Below are positions 14,809 to 58,920 of a stretch of DNA of 59,055 nucleotides, in pieces; the first letter of the stretch is position 1, and the number at the start of each line of letters is the position of its first letter. The stretch spans positions 1 to 59,055 of the forward strand of contig NZ_WHNW01000012.1 in assembly GCF_009362845.1 (NCBI RefSeq), in the 5' to 3' direction. Origin of the DNA: Ostreibacterium oceani (GTDB lineage Bacteria > Pseudomonadota > Gammaproteobacteria > Cardiobacteriales > Ostreibacteriaceae). The notes under the pieces were generated by a model. That model made no database searches. It was not told the DNA's origin and saw only the letters and a list, made by a program, of their open reading frames with translations. The position numbers were made by a program, and so were the translations under genes.

Positions 14809-15255
14809 TCAATCTTCGATTCGCACCATCGCTTCTGCATTAATACAGTAACGCAATCCGCTAGGCGGCGGCCCATCAGGGAATACGTGCCCCAGATGCG
14901 CATCACAGACATTGCATTGCACTTCGATGCGTTGCATACCGTGCCGCGTATCGGCGATATATTTAATCGCGTTTTCCTGTATTGGCTGGGAAAAACTCGG
15001 CCAACCCGTGCCTGAGTCAAACTTTAAGCGTGCATCGAATAGCATTGCACCACAGCATACACAGGCGTATAACCCTGGGTGATGCAGGCCACAGGCGTCG
15101 CTACTAAATGGCGGCTCGGTACCGTGTTGCCGTGTAATGTAATACTGCGCTTCTGTCAGCATTTCTCGCCACTGAACGTCACTTTTTTCGACGCGCTGGG
15201 CGGGTGCCAAATTGCCCTGCTTTACTAATTCATTCACGCGATTCCAGTTCAACAT
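14809..15255 (-). CDS. msrB: peptide-methionine (R)-S-oxide reductase
   Basis: MsrB reduces methionine-R-sulfoxide in proteins. The 148-aa single-domain protein has two zinc CxxC pairs (CVCC and CNVC), the FDSGTGWPSF motif, HLGHVFPDGP and the catalytic cysteine in GLRYCINAEAM. No signal peptide is seen, so it is cytoplasmic. It lies downstream of putA on the same strand, separated by a 12-bp repeat array. Confidence 0.95.
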   Translation of the reverse strand: MLNWNRVNELVKQGNLAPAQRVEKSDVQWREMLTEAQYYITRQHGTEPPFSSDACGLHHPGLYACVCCGAMLFDARLKFDSGTGWPSFSQPIQENAIKYIADTRHGMQRIEVQCNVCDAHLGHVFPDGPPPSGLRYCINAEAMVRIED

Positions 15256-15294
15256 ATTTTGCCTGCCTAAATTTGATGTTAATTACCTATTACT

Positions 15295-15414
15295 GGCATT
15301 ACTACGGGCATTACTACGGGCATTACTACGGGCATTACTACGGGCATTACTACGGGCATTACTACGGGCATTGCTACGGGCATTGCTACGGGCATTATTA
15401 CGGGCATTGCTGCT
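15295..15414. repeat. about ten tandem copies of a 12-bp unit between putA and msrB
   Basis: Six exact GGCATTACTACG units (15295-15366) are followed by three variants with one or two changes and a degenerate tenth. There are no spacers. The array fills much of the 195-bp gap between putA and msrB. Reading frames across it (YYGH or RALL repeats) are by-products of the 12-bp period. Confidence 0.95.
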
Positions 15415-15450
15415 CATCTATTGCTTATCTATTGCTTATCTATTTATCAT

Positions 15451-18400
15451 CTATTGTTCACCCATAGCCAACAGCGTTGCATTGCCACCGATGGCGGTGA
15501 TGTTATTACTAATGGTTTTTTCATTAATAAAGCGCATCAAATAATGCGGGCCGCCCGCCTTTGGCCCTGTGCCTGACAATCCGTGTCCACCAAATGGATT
15601 GACACCAACAATCGCGCCAATCTGATTGCGGTTAATATAAATATTTCCTGCATCGATTTTACGAGCAACCGCCTCGTAAAATGTCTCGTTGCGAGAATGA
15701 ATACCAAAGGTCAGTCCATAGCCCGTGCTGTTAATTTCTGCAATCACGTCCTCTAAGCGCTGACGTTTAAAGCGGATCACATGCAAAATCGGTCCGAATT
15801 GTTCTTTTTCTAGTGCAGCAATCCCATCAATCTCAATGACAGTGGGTTGGATAAAGTAGCTGTCCGTTGGGCAGTCATCTGACAACGGCGTTTGGTAACG
15901 CAGGGTGTGGGTTTTGCCCATTTCATCGAGGTGGGCTTGCAAACCAACTTGCGCACGGTTTTCAATCACACTACCAACATCGGTTTGATAGTGTTCTGGA
16001 TTGCCTAAGCGTAATTCGGCCATCGCACCTTGGAGCAATGCTAAGGTTCTATCGGCAATTTCTTCTTGCAAATACAGCACACGCAACGCCGAGCAACGCT
16101 GCCCCGCCGAGGTGAATGCGGACTCAATCACATCTTTGACGACTTGCTCAGGCAATGAAGTGGAGTCAACAATCATCGCGTTTTGCCCGCCCGTTTCGGC
16201 AATCAACGGCACAATCGGCCCTTCGCGATTTGCCAGCGTTTGATTAATGCGCCGCGCCGTTGCTGTCGAACCCGTGAAACACACGCCATCAACCCGCACA
16301 TCTTCCATTGCTTGCTGCCCAATGACCGAGCCTTTGCCACAAATCAGGTGCAATACATTGGTCGGCACGCCCGCTTCGTGCATCAATTGTACCGCGCGAT
16401 AAGCGATTAAATTAGTCGGCTCAGCTGGCTTTGCCAGTACCGCATTGCCTGTTACCAATGCCGCCACGACTTGCCCTGTAAAAATAGCCAACGGGAAATT
16501 CCAAGGGCTAACACAAAAGAAAACCCCGCGCCCCGTCATATGCAGTTCGTTAGTTTCACCCGTAGGGCCTGGTAATACGGTGGGTGCTGGCCAGTTTTTC
16601 AGTGCTTCGTTGGCATAATATCGACAAAAATCAACCGCCTCTCGCACTTCATCAATGCCATCTTGCAGTGTTTTTCCTGCTTCTCGCGTACACAGCGCAA
16701 TTAATTCGTGTTGGTTTGTCTCAAATAAGTCTGCAATGCGATCAAGCACCGCCGCCCGTTCGCTGGTCGGGCGCTTGGACCATTTTTGCCAACTTTGTTT
16801 GGCGCTGGCAATGGCCGTATTTAATAGCGCATCATCCGCAAAACTCACCGTACCAACAGCCTGCTGAAGGTTATACGGGCTATTGACTGCCAATGGCGCC
16901 TGTACTGCGACGGTTTTCCCATCGACAATCGATGCGCCATCATAGGTTTTTGCATAATGCGAGCGCACAGCGCCAATGAACGGTTCGCGTTGACAGGCGA
17001 TATGCAAATTAAGCCCAGCAGAGTTTTGTCGATTGGCAAAAATCTCTGTTGGTTTCGCAATCGCCGTATTATAAAAACTGGCATATTGTCTGACTTCGCG
17101 AACGGGGTGCACCGCCAGCTGTGATACTGGCGTTTTCGGATCGATTAGCTTGTGCACAAATGACGTATTCGCTCCGTTTTCTAGCAGCCTGCGAACCAAA
17201 TAAGGCAGCAAGTCTTTGTGTGCACCAACGGGTGCATAAATCCGACAATTCAATTCAGGGTGTCTAGTCAGGACTTCGTTATACAGTTCTTCCCCCATGC
17301 CATGTAGCCGCTGAAATTCAAAGCGATGGTTGTGATGCGCCTTGGCAAACGACAAAATACTCAACACGGTTTGTGCGTTATGGGTGGCAAATTGTGGGTA
17401 AATCGTCTCGTGCGCGGTAGCCAACAAATAATTAGCACACGCCAGATATGACACATCCGTGTTCGCCTTGCGAGTGAACACAGGATAGCCTGTCAGCCCC
17501 ATTTGCTGGGCGAGTTTGATTTCGCTATCCCAATAAGCGCCCTTGACCAGGCGCACAGGAATGGTCTTTTTCTGCGCCTTGGCAAGCAAATGAATCCAAT
17601 GCAACACAGGCAGCGCGCGACTGGCGTATGCTTGCACGACCAAACCAAACCCATTCCAGTCTTGGCAAACCTCGGCGCATAGGACTTTTTTAAATAAATG
17701 TAACGACAGCTCTAGTCTGTCCATTTCTTCTGCATCAATCGTGACTTGTACGTTGTTATGTCTCGCGTGAGCAACCAGTGCAACCACGGTCTCATAAAGC
17801 TCTGACAATACCCGCTCACGCTGCGACTCTTCGTAGCGAGGGTGTAGCGCCGATAATTTAATGGAGATATTGGGACGCGCGGCATCGCCTTTATAATGAT
17901 GCGCTCCCAATGCACTAATCGCATCATAATAGCTTTGGTAGTAACGCGTTGCATCGGCTGCCGTAATCGCAGCTTCGCCCAACATATCAAAGGAATGCGT
18001 GTAGCCCAGTTTTCTATCGTCGTCCGCTTCGTTGAGGGCTTCTTTGATCGTGCGCCCCAAAACGAACTGCTTACCCATGATTTTCATCGCTTGGTTCATC
18101 GCGGTGCGGATAACGGGCTCGCCTAGACGATCAATTAATCGCCCTAGCGCCGTCCCTGGGTTTTCTTCGTTTTTCTTACCCCAACGGGTGACTTTGCCCG
18201 ATAGCATCAACCCCCAAGTCGATGCATTGACAAATAATGAATCGCTTTTACTTAGGTGCTTGTCCCACTCGGCACTGGACAGTTTATCCTCAATTAGCGC
18301 ATCGGCCGTTTCGCTATCAGGAATGCGCAATAACGCCTCTGCCAAACACATCAGCGTGATGCCCTCTTCAGTATCTAGGCTATATTCTTGTAAGAAATTA

Positions 18401-24872: not shown

Positions 24873-26045
24873 ATGGCACAATGCAACCAGCAACGCTGGC
24901 AACAGCTATATCAGCGACACATTCACGCGGCTGGCTATGAAATCGATGCCGCTCAATGCGTCATCGTTGATGAATTTGCACGGATTGATACTGGCTTAAA
25001 AAGCACAAACCATCAGGCTAAAACGGCGGTACCTACGATGCTGTCTACGATAGTATCTACGATGGCGTCTACGTGGAAGCACTGGCTAAATTTAGCATCA
25101 ACACGCGAACCAACACGCACGACGACATACCAAGAATCATGCCAAGGACTCTACCTGTACGGCGCGGTGGGGCGTGGCAAGACGTTTTTAATGGATTTAT
25201 TTTGCGAACACGCCTCAGCGCCTGTTTATCGCGTGCATTTTCATTATTTTATGCAAGAGGTGCACCAGCGCCTTCGTCAACTCTCCGTTGAAAACCCACT
25301 CACGATTATCGCCCGTGATTTTTCCGACCAATATCGCGTGCTTTGTCTGGACGAATTCATGGTCAATGATATTACCGATGCGATGTTGCTGTACCAGTTA
25401 TTGGACAGCCTTATATCACAAGGCGTCGTTATCATCACGACCACCAATATCGCGCCTGATGATTTATATCGAGGGGGATTACAGCGTGAACGCTTTTTAC
25501 CTGCGATTGCGTTGATTAAAGACACGATGGTCATCCACGCCATAGACAACGGACAAGACTACCGCCGCCTAAGCGTTGCCAAAAGCCCGCGATTCTTTAA
25601 CACCCACGAGACAGATAGCCAAGCACAACTCACCGCCATCGCCGAGCAAATCAATCACGGCTTAACCGTTTCCCATGAGGGACAAATCATCATTGAAAAC
25701 CGTCCAATCACCTACCAGCAACAATCGGCGGAAATGATTTGGTTTGATTTTTCACAGTTATGCGAAGGCCCACGCTCGCAGCATGACTATATTGCGCTTG
25801 CTAAGCAGTTTCCAGTGATTTTCTTAACCAACATTCCTGTATTAGACCGCGACCAAGAAGAAGCCGCCAAACGGTTTTTATTGCTAATTGACGTGCTGTA
25901 TGACCAGCAAATTTTATTATTTCTATCGAGTGCCGCACCAATCGAACAGATTTACCAAGGCAAAAAACTGGCATTCGAATTCGCCCGCCTGCAATCCCGA
26001 CTGGCTGAAATGCAACAAGCGACTTATAGCCAAAATAATCGCTAG
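24873..26045 (+). CDS. zapE: cell division protein ZapE (AFG1-like ATPase)
   Basis: ZapE is a peripheral AAA ATPase linked to division under low oxygen or heat. The Walker A is LYLYGAVGRGKTFLMDLF and the Walker B region is VLCLDEFMVNDITDAMLL. TTNIAPDDLYRGGLQRERFLP and WFDFSQLCEGPRS are typical family blocks. Residues about 52-70 contain a 12-bp-period repeat (TMLSTIVSTMASTW, built on TCTACGAT) that E. coli-type ZapE is not expected to have. No clear Shine-Dalgarno precedes the ATG. Confidence 0.92.
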   Translation: MAQCNQQRWQQLYQRHIHAAGYEIDAAQCVIVDEFARIDTGLKSTNHQAKTAVPTMLSTIVSTMASTWKHWLNLASTREPTRTTTYQESCQGLYLYGAVGRGKTFLMDLFCEHASAPVYRVHFHYFMQEVHQRLRQLSVENPLTIIARDFSDQYRVLCLDEFMVNDITDAMLLYQLLDSLISQGVVIITTTNIAPDDLYRGGLQRERFLPAIALIKDTMVIHAIDNGQDYRRLSVAKSPRFFNTHETDSQAQLTAIAEQINHGLTVSHEGQIIIENRPITYQQQSAEMIWFDFSQLCEGPRSQHDYIALAKQFPVIFLTNIPVLDRDQEEAAKRFLLLIDVLYDQQILLFLSSAAPIEQIYQGKKLAFEFARLQSRLAEMQQATYSQNNR

Positions 26046-26123: not shown

Positions 26124-26434
26124 TTAATCCATGAAGTTATACTCTGCAGTTTTCACCACCCCGTTTTCAAGCACTACATGACAGCCCCAACGACCAAACG
26201 TTTTGGACTCTACAAGAAGAGTAGAGCCTGTCTCTGCGTGAGGCGGTCTAAGCCCATGCTCATCGGCGAATGACCTTAAGATATCAACAGACATGCCCGG
26301 TATAATCTCAGCACAGATTTGAAGATTTGACGCATACGGCTCTCGGCACTAATGAAAGGATAACCATATGAAGATAAACCACCAACGATAAAAATACCAG
26401 CGATTAGATTGACTAGCTTACGACTTTTTCCCAT
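26124..26434 (-). pseudogene. small membrane-anchored protein gene, frameshifted by an 8-bp tandem duplication
   Basis: From ATG 26434 the minus strand encodes MGKSRKLVNLIAGIFIVGG, a basic start and one membrane helix. After SRMRQI the frame is lost. The 8-mer TCAAATCT occurs twice in direct tandem (plus-strand 26315-26330). Removing one copy restores one open frame of 100 codons, running through CAEIIPGMSVDILRSFADEH and GRWGCHVVLENGVVKTAEYN to a TAA at 26126. As read, the first frame stops after about 20 more residues. I do not recognise the family. It could be a decayed gene, an on/off switch by slippage, or an assembly error. The rest of 26046-26514 holds nothing else I can support. Confidence 0.7.
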
Positions 26435-26514: not shown

Positions 26515-27171
26515 TTATGTCACTACGCGCAAAGCCTGGCGAGATTTTATTTCGTGGTAATACGACCACAGCAAATAGCACGCGGCGCTGCGATGGGGCT
26601 GCCAGTCCTCAGCGATTTCACGTAATTGACTTTCCTTAGGTCGCGTTTTAAGCGATAAACAATGTTGCGCGGCAACCTGAAGCGCCAAATCATTCGCCGC
26701 CATGACGTCGGGACGATTAAGGGAAAATAATAAATAAATCTCTGCCGTCCAGCGTCCGATACCCGTTACTGCTGTCAGCTGCGCAATCACCGCTTCATCA
26801 TCCAACGAAGCCAACTCCGCAAAATCAATCCGATGCGAGACCAACGAACGAACATAACGAATTTTCTGGCTAGACAATCCACACAGCCTGAGCTGTGAAT
26901 CGCTTGCGGCTTTAATTGCCTTGGGCGTGACCAGTGATGCGGCACTAAGCCTTTTCCAAATGCTACTGGCGGCGGCCACGGATAACTGCTGCGAAACAAT
27001 CGTACGATAAAGCTGAGTAAAATCATTGTCGCGCAATCGTAACTCGGGCAAACCCGTCACGGCAAAAACGTCTGCAAACACGGGCGCGACAGCAATTAAG
27101 CCTTGCACCTGTGTGGCAAGAGATGATGGGGTTAGAATCCGTGAGCATTGCAAACGGGTTGCGTTTAACAT
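26515..27171 (-). CDS. DNA-3-methyladenine glycosylase II family
   Basis: The protein removes alkylated bases from DNA as the first step of base excision repair. The 218-aa product is the HhH-GPD catalytic core without the AlkA N-terminal domain. YRTIVSQQLSVAAASSIWKR is followed by the helix-hairpin-helix LTAVTGIGRWTAEIYLLF and the catalytic aspartate in PDVMAANDLAL. The C-terminus WQPHRSAACYLLW is also typical. It is related to AlkA; yeast MAG1-like is an equally good description. Confidence 0.88.
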   Translation of the reverse strand: MLNATRLQCSRILTPSSLATQVQGLIAVAPVFADVFAVTGLPELRLRDNDFTQLYRTIVSQQLSVAAASSIWKRLSAASLVTPKAIKAASDSQLRLCGLSSQKIRYVRSLVSHRIDFAELASLDDEAVIAQLTAVTGIGRWTAEIYLLFSLNRPDVMAANDLALQVAAQHCLSLKTRPKESQLREIAEDWQPHRSAACYLLWSYYHEIKSRQALRVVT

Positions 27172-30753: not shown

Positions 30754-31716
30754 ATGGCGATAACGGCGGGTGGTCATTTCCGTTTAAAAACGGGCGATGC
30801 GGTGGCGTTAATTGCGCCTGCATCAGGGCAAAAATCACACGAAACTGGCTACCTAAACGAGGCGGTTGAGCTGCTCACTAGCTGGGGGCTAGTGGTTAAA
30901 ATTTTCGCAGCGCAGCAGCCCACGCACTACTTAGCTGCCAACGATGATACGCGTGCCACGCAGCTAAATGCCGCCCTTACTGATCCGACAATCAAAGCCA
31001 TTTTCGTCACCCGCGGTGGCTACGGCTGTGCGAGAATCGTCGATGCTATCACCCCAGTCAGTTTTGGCGAAAAATGGCTCGTTGGATTTAGCGATATCAC
31101 CACCCTTCAATTGTGCTTAGCCACACATAGCAACATACATCGCATTCACGGCCCTAACTTAGCCACGGCGCAATTTTTAGCACCAACGCAAGCAGCAGAG
31201 ACCAATCGTCAACAACTCTATCACGCGTTATTTACTGGCGAATTCCCCAAATTAACGCTTGAACCCCTCAATGCAGCCGCCCAGAAACACGCCCAGAAAC
31301 ACGCCCAGAAACACGCCCAGAAACACGCCCAGAAACACGCACAAACGCAAACACAAACACAGCCGCTTAATTTATCAACAGCCCCACTAACGGGTGGCTG
31401 TTTATCGATTGTTGTCACCACGCTGGGCACGCCCTTTGCGATTGACACAACCAACAAAATACTCATGCTAGAAGAGACCAACGAGCCGCCTTTTCGTATT
31501 GATCGTATGCTGACCCACTTGGCGCTTGCTGGCAAGCTAACCAACCTTCAAGGGCTAGTTTTCGGGGAAATGCAGGCCTGTCATTCGCCCCAAATTGATT
31601 TATTTGATATCCTAAAAGCCCAATTTACCGACGCCCATTTCCCCGTCTATTGCAGCCCAGATTTTGGGCATGGCGCACGTAATTTATGCTGGCGCTACGA
31701 CACGGGTGTTGCCTAA
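30754..31716 (+). CDS. ldcA: muramoyltetrapeptide LD-carboxypeptidase (S66)
   Basis: LdcA removes the terminal D-Ala from tetrapeptides during murein recycling. The N-terminal VALIAPASG and VTRGGYGCARIVDAI precede the nucleophile serine in WLVGFSDITTLQL. The acidic member is in MLEETNEPPFRIDRML and the histidine in DFGHGARN. Between the two domains (about residues 175-203) sits an in-frame AQKH array plus TQTQTQ. The C-terminus stops at RYDTGVA, slightly shorter than usual. It works in the same recycling pathway as AnmK at 50.9 kb. Confidence 0.9.
   Translation: MAITAGGHFRLKTGDAVALIAPASGQKSHETGYLNEAVELLTSWGLVVKIFAAQQPTHYLAANDDTRATQLNAALTDPTIKAIFVTRGGYGCARIVDAITPVSFGEKWLVGFSDITTLQLCLATHSNIHRIHGPNLATAQFLAPTQAAETNRQQLYHALFTGEFPKLTLEPLNAAAQKHAQKHAQKHAQKHAQKHAQTQTQTQPLNLSTAPLTGGCLSIVVTTLGTPFAIDTTNKILMLEETNEPPFRIDRMLTHLALAGKLTNLQGLVFGEMQACHSPQIDLFDILKAQFTDAHFPVYCSPDFGHGARNLCWRYDTGVA
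31279..31338 (+). repeat. five exact 12-bp in-frame repeats in ldcA
   Basis: GCCCAGAAACAC occurs five times without mismatch and encodes AQKH units. It is followed by degenerate ACAAAC repeats encoding TQTQTQ. The array lies in the linker between the two LdcA domains, so it can vary in length without shifting frame. Confidence 0.95.
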
Positions 31717-56484: not shown

Positions 56485-57597
56485 ATGATAAAGAGCAAAA
56501 TAAAGCACGTATTCGTTAAATGGTCAGTGGTTGTGTTGTTATTGACGGTAGGCAAGCTAGCACAGGCACAGATTACGGTAGGGTCTACGGATAATTTCAT
56601 CACCACATGGAACACTGAGGCACAAACCTCGCTTATCATCCCGACCACGGGTACGGGTTATAATTTCACGCTGTATTGGGAAGAGGTTGGTAATGCGGCG
56701 AACAATGGCACACTAACGGCCCAAACGGGGAATCCCACCATTACGGGATTGACGGTAAATACCGATTATCGTGTCGAAATCACGGGCGCTTTTCCGCGTA
56801 TTTTTATTAGCTCTCAACCGCCACAAAGGACGCAAATCCGCACAGTCTCTCAGTGGGGCACGATTGCATGGCAATCCATGGTAAGCGCTTTTTCAGGAAC
56901 AAGTAATTTACAGGTGACTGCGACAGACACCCCTGATTTATCAGCCGTCACTGATTTAACAGGCATGTTTGTAAATACTCAGGCGATGACCGGAGCTGGC
57001 GCCAACTGGGATTGGGATGTCAGCAGTGTGACGAATATGCAGTTAATGTTTCAAAGTGCTGTCAGTTTTAACCAAGACTTGGGTGATTGGGATACCAGCA
57101 GTGTGACAAATATGGAAGCTATGTTTTCCAACGCATTAAATTTTAACCAAGACATTGGCGATTGGGATACCAGTAGTGTGACGAATATGGAGTTCATATT
57201 TTTGGATGCATTAGATTTTAACCAAGACTTAGGCGATTGGGATTTAAGCAGTGTGACATCGACTAGTCTTATGCTATTTAACTCAGGGCTTGATTGTGGC
57301 AACTACTCGCTAACATTAATTGGCTGGGCCGCTAACGCAAATACCCCTGATAATCTAGCCTTAAGTAGCGTATCACCATTGCAGTATGGTACTGGAGCAG
57401 AAGCCGCGCGTGATGCCTTGATAGCTAAGGGTTGGAATATTACTGGCGATACACTGGATGCGACCTGCGTTATACCGACCAATACTACTGGCAATGCTGC
57501 AGCGATTCCGACGGTATCTTGGTGGGCGCTGTTAATGACGGTGTTTGGTGTGATGGGAATTGCTGGGGTTGCTCGTAGACGCAGCAATAGCTATTAA
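56485..57597 (+). CDS. BspA-like (DUF285) surface protein with IPTL-CTERM-like anchor, copy 1
   Basis: A signal peptide ends AQA near residue 28. A beta-rich N-terminal domain (to about 115) precedes 25-residue DUF285 repeats of the form [18 protein letters not shown]. Three full repeats and a degenerate one span about residues 178-275. The C-terminus [20 protein letters not shown] followed by ARRRS fits the IPTL-CTERM sorting signal: short motif, membrane helix, Arg tail. The protein is probably exported and processed at the envelope. BspA-like repeats in other bacteria are linked to adhesion. The next gene is a near duplicate. Confidence 0.88.
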
Positions 57598-57773
57598 CAT
57601 TAGCGAGTATTAAGCAAAACTTCGCTTAGCAGAAAATTTAGCAGGAAATTTTAGTAGCCAAGGGAAATATTAACAAATGGTAATCAATTAAGCGGTGAAT
57701 CAAGTCGCTGCTGTGGTTATTTTTTGCTAATATGTGATAGACATAATGTCTCATGGTGAGTGATTATGTTTTG

Positions 57774-57946
57774 ATTACAAGCTGCTAGTGGGTTGTTAAT
57801 TGCAGGGCGTTTTTTGCGTCACTAGTTGCCATCATTGGTTGCCATTGATTTAAAAAAATGTGTAGCGAGAGATGCGTTGCGAGAGACTTATTTGGCGTGT
57901 CAGTAGCTAATCGAGTTAAACAAAAGGTTAAAAAAAGTAAAAGGAC
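57774..57946 (+). repeat. duplicated leader block, copy 2
   Basis: It is the second copy of the leader at 56319-56484. It has a replaced middle section (GCAGGGCGTTTTTTGCGTC) and an identical stretch TTTAAAAAAATGTGTAGCG onward. Its upstream sequence (57598-57773) is unrelated to that of copy 1. Confidence 0.85.
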
Positions 57947-58920
57947 ATGAGAAAGAACAAAATAAAGCACGTATTCGTTAAATGGTCAGTGGTTGTATTG
58001 TTATTGACGGTAGGCAAGCTAGCACAGGCACAGATTACGGTAGGGTCTACAGATAATTTCATCACCACATGGAACACTGAGGCACAAACCTCGATTATCA
58101 TCCCGACCACGGGTACAGGTTATAATTACACGCTGTATTGGGAAGAGGTTGGTAATGCGGCGAACAATGGCACACTAACGGCCCAAACGGGGAATCCCAC
58201 CATTACGGGATTGACGGTAAATACCGATTATCGTGTCGAAATCACGGGTGCTTTTCCGCGTATTTTTATTAGCGGTCAACCGCCACAAAGGACGCAAATC
58301 CGCACAGTCTCTCAGTGGGGCACGATTGCATGGCAATCCATGGAGGCCGCTTTTTTGAGTGCACTTAATCTACAGGTGACTGCGACAGACACCCCTGATT
58401 TATCAGCCGTCACTGATTTAACAGGCATGTTTGTAAATACTCCGGCGATGACCGGAGCTGGCGCCAACTGGGATTGGGATGTCAGCAGTGTGACGAATAT
58501 GCAGAGTATGTTTAGCGGCGCACCCAATTTTAACCAAGACATTGGTGATTGGGATACCAGCAGTGTGACAAATATGGAAGCTATGTTTTCCAACGCATTA
58601 AATTTTAACCAAGACATTGGCGATTGGGATGTCAGCAATGTGACGAATATGGAAGGTATATTTCAACAAGCAGCCAATTTTAACGGAGATGTTGGTAATT
58701 GGGATACCAGTAGTGTGACGGATATGGGGACTATGTTTGGCGGCGCATCCAGCTTTAACCAAGACATTGGCGATTGGGATACCAGTAGTGTGACGAATAT
58801 GGATTTTATGTTTACCAGCGCATCCAGCTTCAACCAAGACTTGGGTGATTGGGATACCAGTAGTGTGACGAATATGGAGTTCATGTTTTTGGATGCAGTA
58901 GATTTTAACCAAGACTTAGG
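57947..58920 (+). pseudogene. BspA-like (DUF285) surface protein, copy 2, interrupted by IS
   Basis: The first 130 residues are almost identical to copy 1, including the signal peptide. It then has at least six 25-residue DUF285 repeats (against three in copy 1), with units such as [19 protein letters not shown] shared and others unique ([19 protein letters not shown]). At 58921, within the sixth repeat, an IS481-type element begins. The reading frame continues ten codons into the IS and stops at 58951. The C-terminal sorting signal is lost, so the product would not be anchored as in copy 1. Confidence 0.85.

Follow-up and report, generated by a model that had tools for sequence, protein, structure and literature searches.

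A small gene interrupted by an 8-bp tandem repeat

The window, the whole 59,055-base stretch of Ostreibacterium oceani DNA that was analyzed, carries on the minus strand between 26434 and 26124 one 100-codon gene interrupted by a frame-shifting 8-bp tandem repeat. Delimited by sequence and homology, the gene runs from ATG 26434 to the stop at 26126-26124, and its 311 bases equal 303 + 8, the 303 being 101 codons with the stop counted. The frame-breaking lesion itself, an exact repeat of exactly 2.0 copies, occurs once, at 26315-26330 of the same strand. The upstream piece (26331-26434, minus strand), recognized from its sequence and profile scores, encodes in the first frame a hydrophobic membrane anchor and then an AESR segment. 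At the repeat, the frame of ATG 26434 leaves that of the gene and meets a premature stop at 26276-26278 (minus strand) after 52 residues in total. A different frame is open over the second part, which begins at about 26315 and extends to the stop at 26124-26126; this downstream piece (26127-26315, minus strand), defined by homology to the relative L003 described below, comprises 63 codons from a conserved Cys (C..I.PGMS ... R.GC ... VVKTAEYN). No further frame breaks were found in the upstream or downstream piece. Pfam matches identify the flanking ORFs as an AFG1-like ATPase (24873-26045, plus strand) and an HhH-GPD glycosylase (26515-27171, minus strand).

Relatives of the two pieces

In the species-representative genome collection, 182 stretches fitted the search pattern and one was confirmed, L003 (contig CAMBDR010000393.1), the only relative of the downstream piece there. 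It is a metagenome-assembled contig labeled Janthinobacterium lividum, and this one contig is the sole near relative. Its protein is intact, with 103 residues and a hydrophobic segment at the N-terminus, and the downstream piece shares 54% identity over 61 columns with L003 1202-1384. The upstream piece alone gave no useful BLASTP match to the L003 protein (E 3.2); by eye, AESR was seen four residues ahead of the conserved Cys in both. The spacing from the anchor to this Cys (R, four residues ending before C) is equal in L003, in distant members of the family and on either side of the repeat, and the 8 bases are therefore the extra. No repeat tract lies at the corresponding place in L003.

With the downstream piece as query, none of the 56 other genomes of the order and class gave a match, and the L003 protein gave one weak match, to G190 (E 6.9e-4), among 368 other genomes of the class. 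A three-row profile, A1, gave no match in 397 other genomes sampled from the phylum, and it matched 47 of the 57 genomes of the family of G190, another gammaproteobacterial family, with G190 itself being a row of the profile. The gene is thus frequent in one distant bacterial family and missing in the order-mates searched, which makes it an accessory gene here.

A profile of ten proteins from the distant family was built from the loci passing the cut (within L007-L026) and not from all 47 genomes, and it excludes both L003 and the window. It scored 25.5 bits for the L003 protein and 10.8 bits for the downstream piece, values reached by none of 2000 shuffles of each, and 0.4 bits for the upstream piece, with 42 of 2000 shuffles as high. 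When L003 was added, the upstream piece rose to 3.2 bits, with 1 of 2000 shuffles as high, and the two pieces joined at the conserved Cys of this profile with nothing missing between them. The gene has intact homologues and homology on both sides of the lesion, as is found for a frame-disrupted gene; that of the upstream side is supported by these sequence comparisons, less strongly than that of the downstream side.

An earlier note made from the letters of this DNA had proposed that an exact 8-bp duplication knocks a small gene out of frame and that removing one copy restores 100 codons with a membrane anchor and a conserved-looking C-terminus. The duplication lies where it was placed, between two homologous parts, the arithmetic of the restored frame was correct, and the C-terminus is borne out by its profile score, the anchor more weakly by that of the upstream piece. 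The lack of any homologue of the restored form, which the note had allowed for, did not occur, given the intact relative and the 47 genomes of the distant family.

Identity of the protein family

Across its two frames, the window gene fits the small L003/f6 family, the members of which have an N-terminal anchor, the C..I.PGMS motif, a second Cys, and a length of about 100 aa. Neither the L003 protein nor the window pieces had a match over the curated cut-off in Pfam and NCBIfam, and six distant family members had none over the cut-off in Pfam. By the searches made, the family is uncharacterized, with no Pfam or NCBIfam name. A single-sequence structure model of the L003 protein was too weak to use (mean pLDDT 62.4, pTM 0.36); the PDB gave no match at E 0.001 or better, the best being 0.72. 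No relative of the L003 protein was found among plasmids and viral contigs.

In the distant family, an ORF of 378-382 codons was observed near the small anchored gene in all 10 loci listed (L007, L009, L010, L012, L013, L015, L018, L023, L024, and L026), and it encodes the oxaloacetate decarboxylase beta subunit (OAD_beta) in both loci scanned, L009 and L024. The neighbors in L003 are a histidine kinase and an SNF2-type ORF. The gene neighborhood was rejected as a clue to function; the neighbors differ among the window, L003, and the distant family, and no function follows from them.

Short tandem duplications across the genome

Taken by itself, the 8-bp repeat is within chance. The window contains three exact period-8 repeats, where 100 first-order Markov resamples averaged 0.82 and reached 5 at most, which makes such a repeat about a once-per-window event; the zero expectation computed for the repeat covers that single 16-base word only. 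Its status as a real lesion comes from the homology on both sides and not from the rarity of the repeat, and its dating and its tie to the genome-wide process have therefore likewise to be drawn from the homology.

The window plus ten additional stretches of 20 kb each (L027-L036), 259,055 bases altogether, served as the sample of the genome and were compared with 788,714 bases from fifteen other genomes, namely, fourteen order-mates and G190. Exact tandem repeats with units of 8-30 bp numbered 109 in the sample (21 in the 59,055 bases of the window and 88 in the 200,000 bases of the ten stretches) and 35 in the comparison set, an excess of about ten-fold, in agreement with the duplication-prone character ascribed to this genome in the earlier note. 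With units of 10 bp or more, there were 83 here (15 in the window and 68 in the ten stretches) and 11 elsewhere. Imperfect arrays called by TRF at a score of at least 40 (period 8-30) reached 80 and 91 per 100 kb here compared to 0 to 55 elsewhere. Among the sixteen genomes sampled, only this one shows a strong excess; the order-mate G001 is intermediate, with 8 exact repeats in 40 kb, and suggests that the trait may not be unique.

On a crude call of ORFs (the longest non-overlapping ones with at least 80 codons), which covers 85% of bases and leaves about 15% intergenic, 61 of the 109 exact repeats lie between ORFs, 39 lie within them, and 9 span an ORF edge; the repeat at 26315 is tallied as intergenic, since its gene is broken. 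The unit is a multiple of three in 32 of the 39 repeats inside ORFs, compared to 21 of the 61 intergenic ones, from which it follows that frame-breaking repeats have been purged from genes, the one at 26315 being an exception. Intergenic unit lengths peak at 11-13 bp (8 to 11 repeats at each length) and fade by 16 bp. Most arrays hold two to three copies, and the unit sequences vary from place to place. This pattern is what frequent duplication filtered by reading-frame selection would leave.

Stop-free flanks alone do not mark out further broken genes. When at least 38 codons free of stops were required on each side in the displaced frame, 5 of 45 two-copy non-triplet repeats passed (the one at 26315 included), compared to 21% of 3000 random positions.

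Loss of a repair gene was rejected as the sole cause of the excess. Matches over the curated cut-off were found for mutS in 21 of 21, and for recJ and xseA each in 20 of 21 genomes, this genome included each time. The C-terminal domain of exonuclease I (PF08411) was not matched in this genome, and 9 of the 20 others lacked a match as well; among these, G002 and G013 carry 1 and 4 repeats per 100 kb and show no excess.

Probable origin and consequences of the lesion

With a probability of roughly 0.8, a single recent 8-bp duplication shifted the frame of an accessory gene encoding a small single-pass membrane-anchored protein of about 100 aa. The 8 bp would have been copied within the gene when replication or repair slipped or switched template by about one unit, probably through the same process, polymerase slippage or template switching in repair, that scatters duplications over the genome, and the lesion at 26315 is most likely an ordinary mutation and a chance casualty of that process. 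As the reading frames predict, the frame change would cut the protein after the anchor and leave the remainder untranslated in register, and what the cell now produces is presumably no more than a 52-residue fragment, the anchor followed by a wrong tail. The gene would be non-functional unless the extra copy is lost again; precise loss of one copy could restore the frame. The ancestral state in this lineage was presumably the single copy, and the event is probably recent on the scale of pseudogene decay, because neither side carries a second lesion.

An assembly or sequencing error, with a single copy in the chromosome and an intact gene, is unlikely. The genome is a 36-contig draft, but it scored 100% complete with 0.01 contamination, and even a short read is much longer than the 16 bp of the repeat, which counts against misassembly. 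Like repeats in all eleven stretches sampled argue for a real property of the DNA.

The earlier note had also raised the possibility of a phase switch, in which the gene is toggled by frequent gain and loss of the duplication. The lesion is an exact tandem copy of frame-breaking length in a genome that makes many such duplications, and a precedent is given in PMC4022640, where the pneumococcal capsule genes cap3A, cap8E, and tts are described as inactivated by spontaneous sequence duplications (Waite et al. 2001, 2003). There too, as far as that account goes, an exact tandem copy inside an ORF breaks the frame, and precise loss is possible in principle; the two cases differ in that reversion of those genes was seen in culture and that the unit in the window is only 8 bp. 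Reversion of an insertion that does not exceed nine bp occurs at about 1e-5 at the most, according to the same source, which cites Waite 2001 and 2003. In the passage concerned of PMC6786866, none of eight lrp mutants tested, a set including tandem duplications in a share not stated there, reverted at the DNA level. Moreover, the locus holds only two 8-bp copies where a switch would have a tract of several units, no second allele came to light, L003 lacks a tract at the corresponding place, and the encoded protein has no known role calling for switching. The proposal thus found no support and is highly improbable for this gene. Every mutation of this type has a potential for reversion, which does not amount to a switch. 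A broader version, in which a process of the lineage duplicates segments of 8-15 bp, preferably of 11-13 bp, about ten times as often as in order-mates and is used or tolerated for reversible inactivation, this gene included, would be only marginally more credible.

Translational rescue, by ribosomal frameshifting at the repeat or a re-start at the internal ATG 26294 that keeps partial function, is also very improbable: this ATG precedes the stop at 26276 in an overlapping frame, as in coupled re-initiation, but the product would be a 56-aa piece without the anchor, the conserved Cys, and PG, and by eye no known shift-prone sequence was recognized.

Comparison with other repeat-rich genomes

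With mutation by duplication as the favored origin of the lesion, the broken gene itself matters little, being a small accessory gene lost by a common type of mutation. The genome-wide excess is more interesting, and unit length there does not simply fall off with size. Long simple sequence repeats with units of 5-11 nt are enriched in some prokaryote genomes, according to the introduction of PMC4679880, which refers to Mrazek and colleagues. As described there, those repeats share with the present ones an excess of short tandem copies, a preference for multiples of three in coding regions, and slippage as the proposed origin. Unlike them, the units here reach 15 bp, with an intergenic maximum at 11-13 bp and mostly two to three copies, and the strong excess is confined to one of the sixteen genomes sampled. 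The intergenic TAACTGA direct repeats of marine Beggiatoaceae, also reported in PMC4679880, likewise represent many short direct repeats in the intergenic DNA of a gammaproteobacterium; in that account they are one recurring heptamer, whereas the units listed here differ by place. Strains of the species would allow direct measurement of the rate and mechanism of duplication, with the broken gene as a marked case.

Other repeats in the window

An 87-codon ORF at 15204-15467 contains an 11-bp non-triplet repeat (15416-15444) near its 3' end, beside a 12-bp array, and is possibly another frame altered by duplication. At 31278-31340, an exact 12-bp array of 5.25 copies lies in a 320-codon ORF and encodes in-frame HAQK-type repeats. 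Arrays of a 75-bp repeat, with the unit beginning GATTGGGATACCAGCAGTGTGACGAATATG, extend over 57010-58915; they suggest a surface protein with 25-residue repeats, the protein type being our guess.
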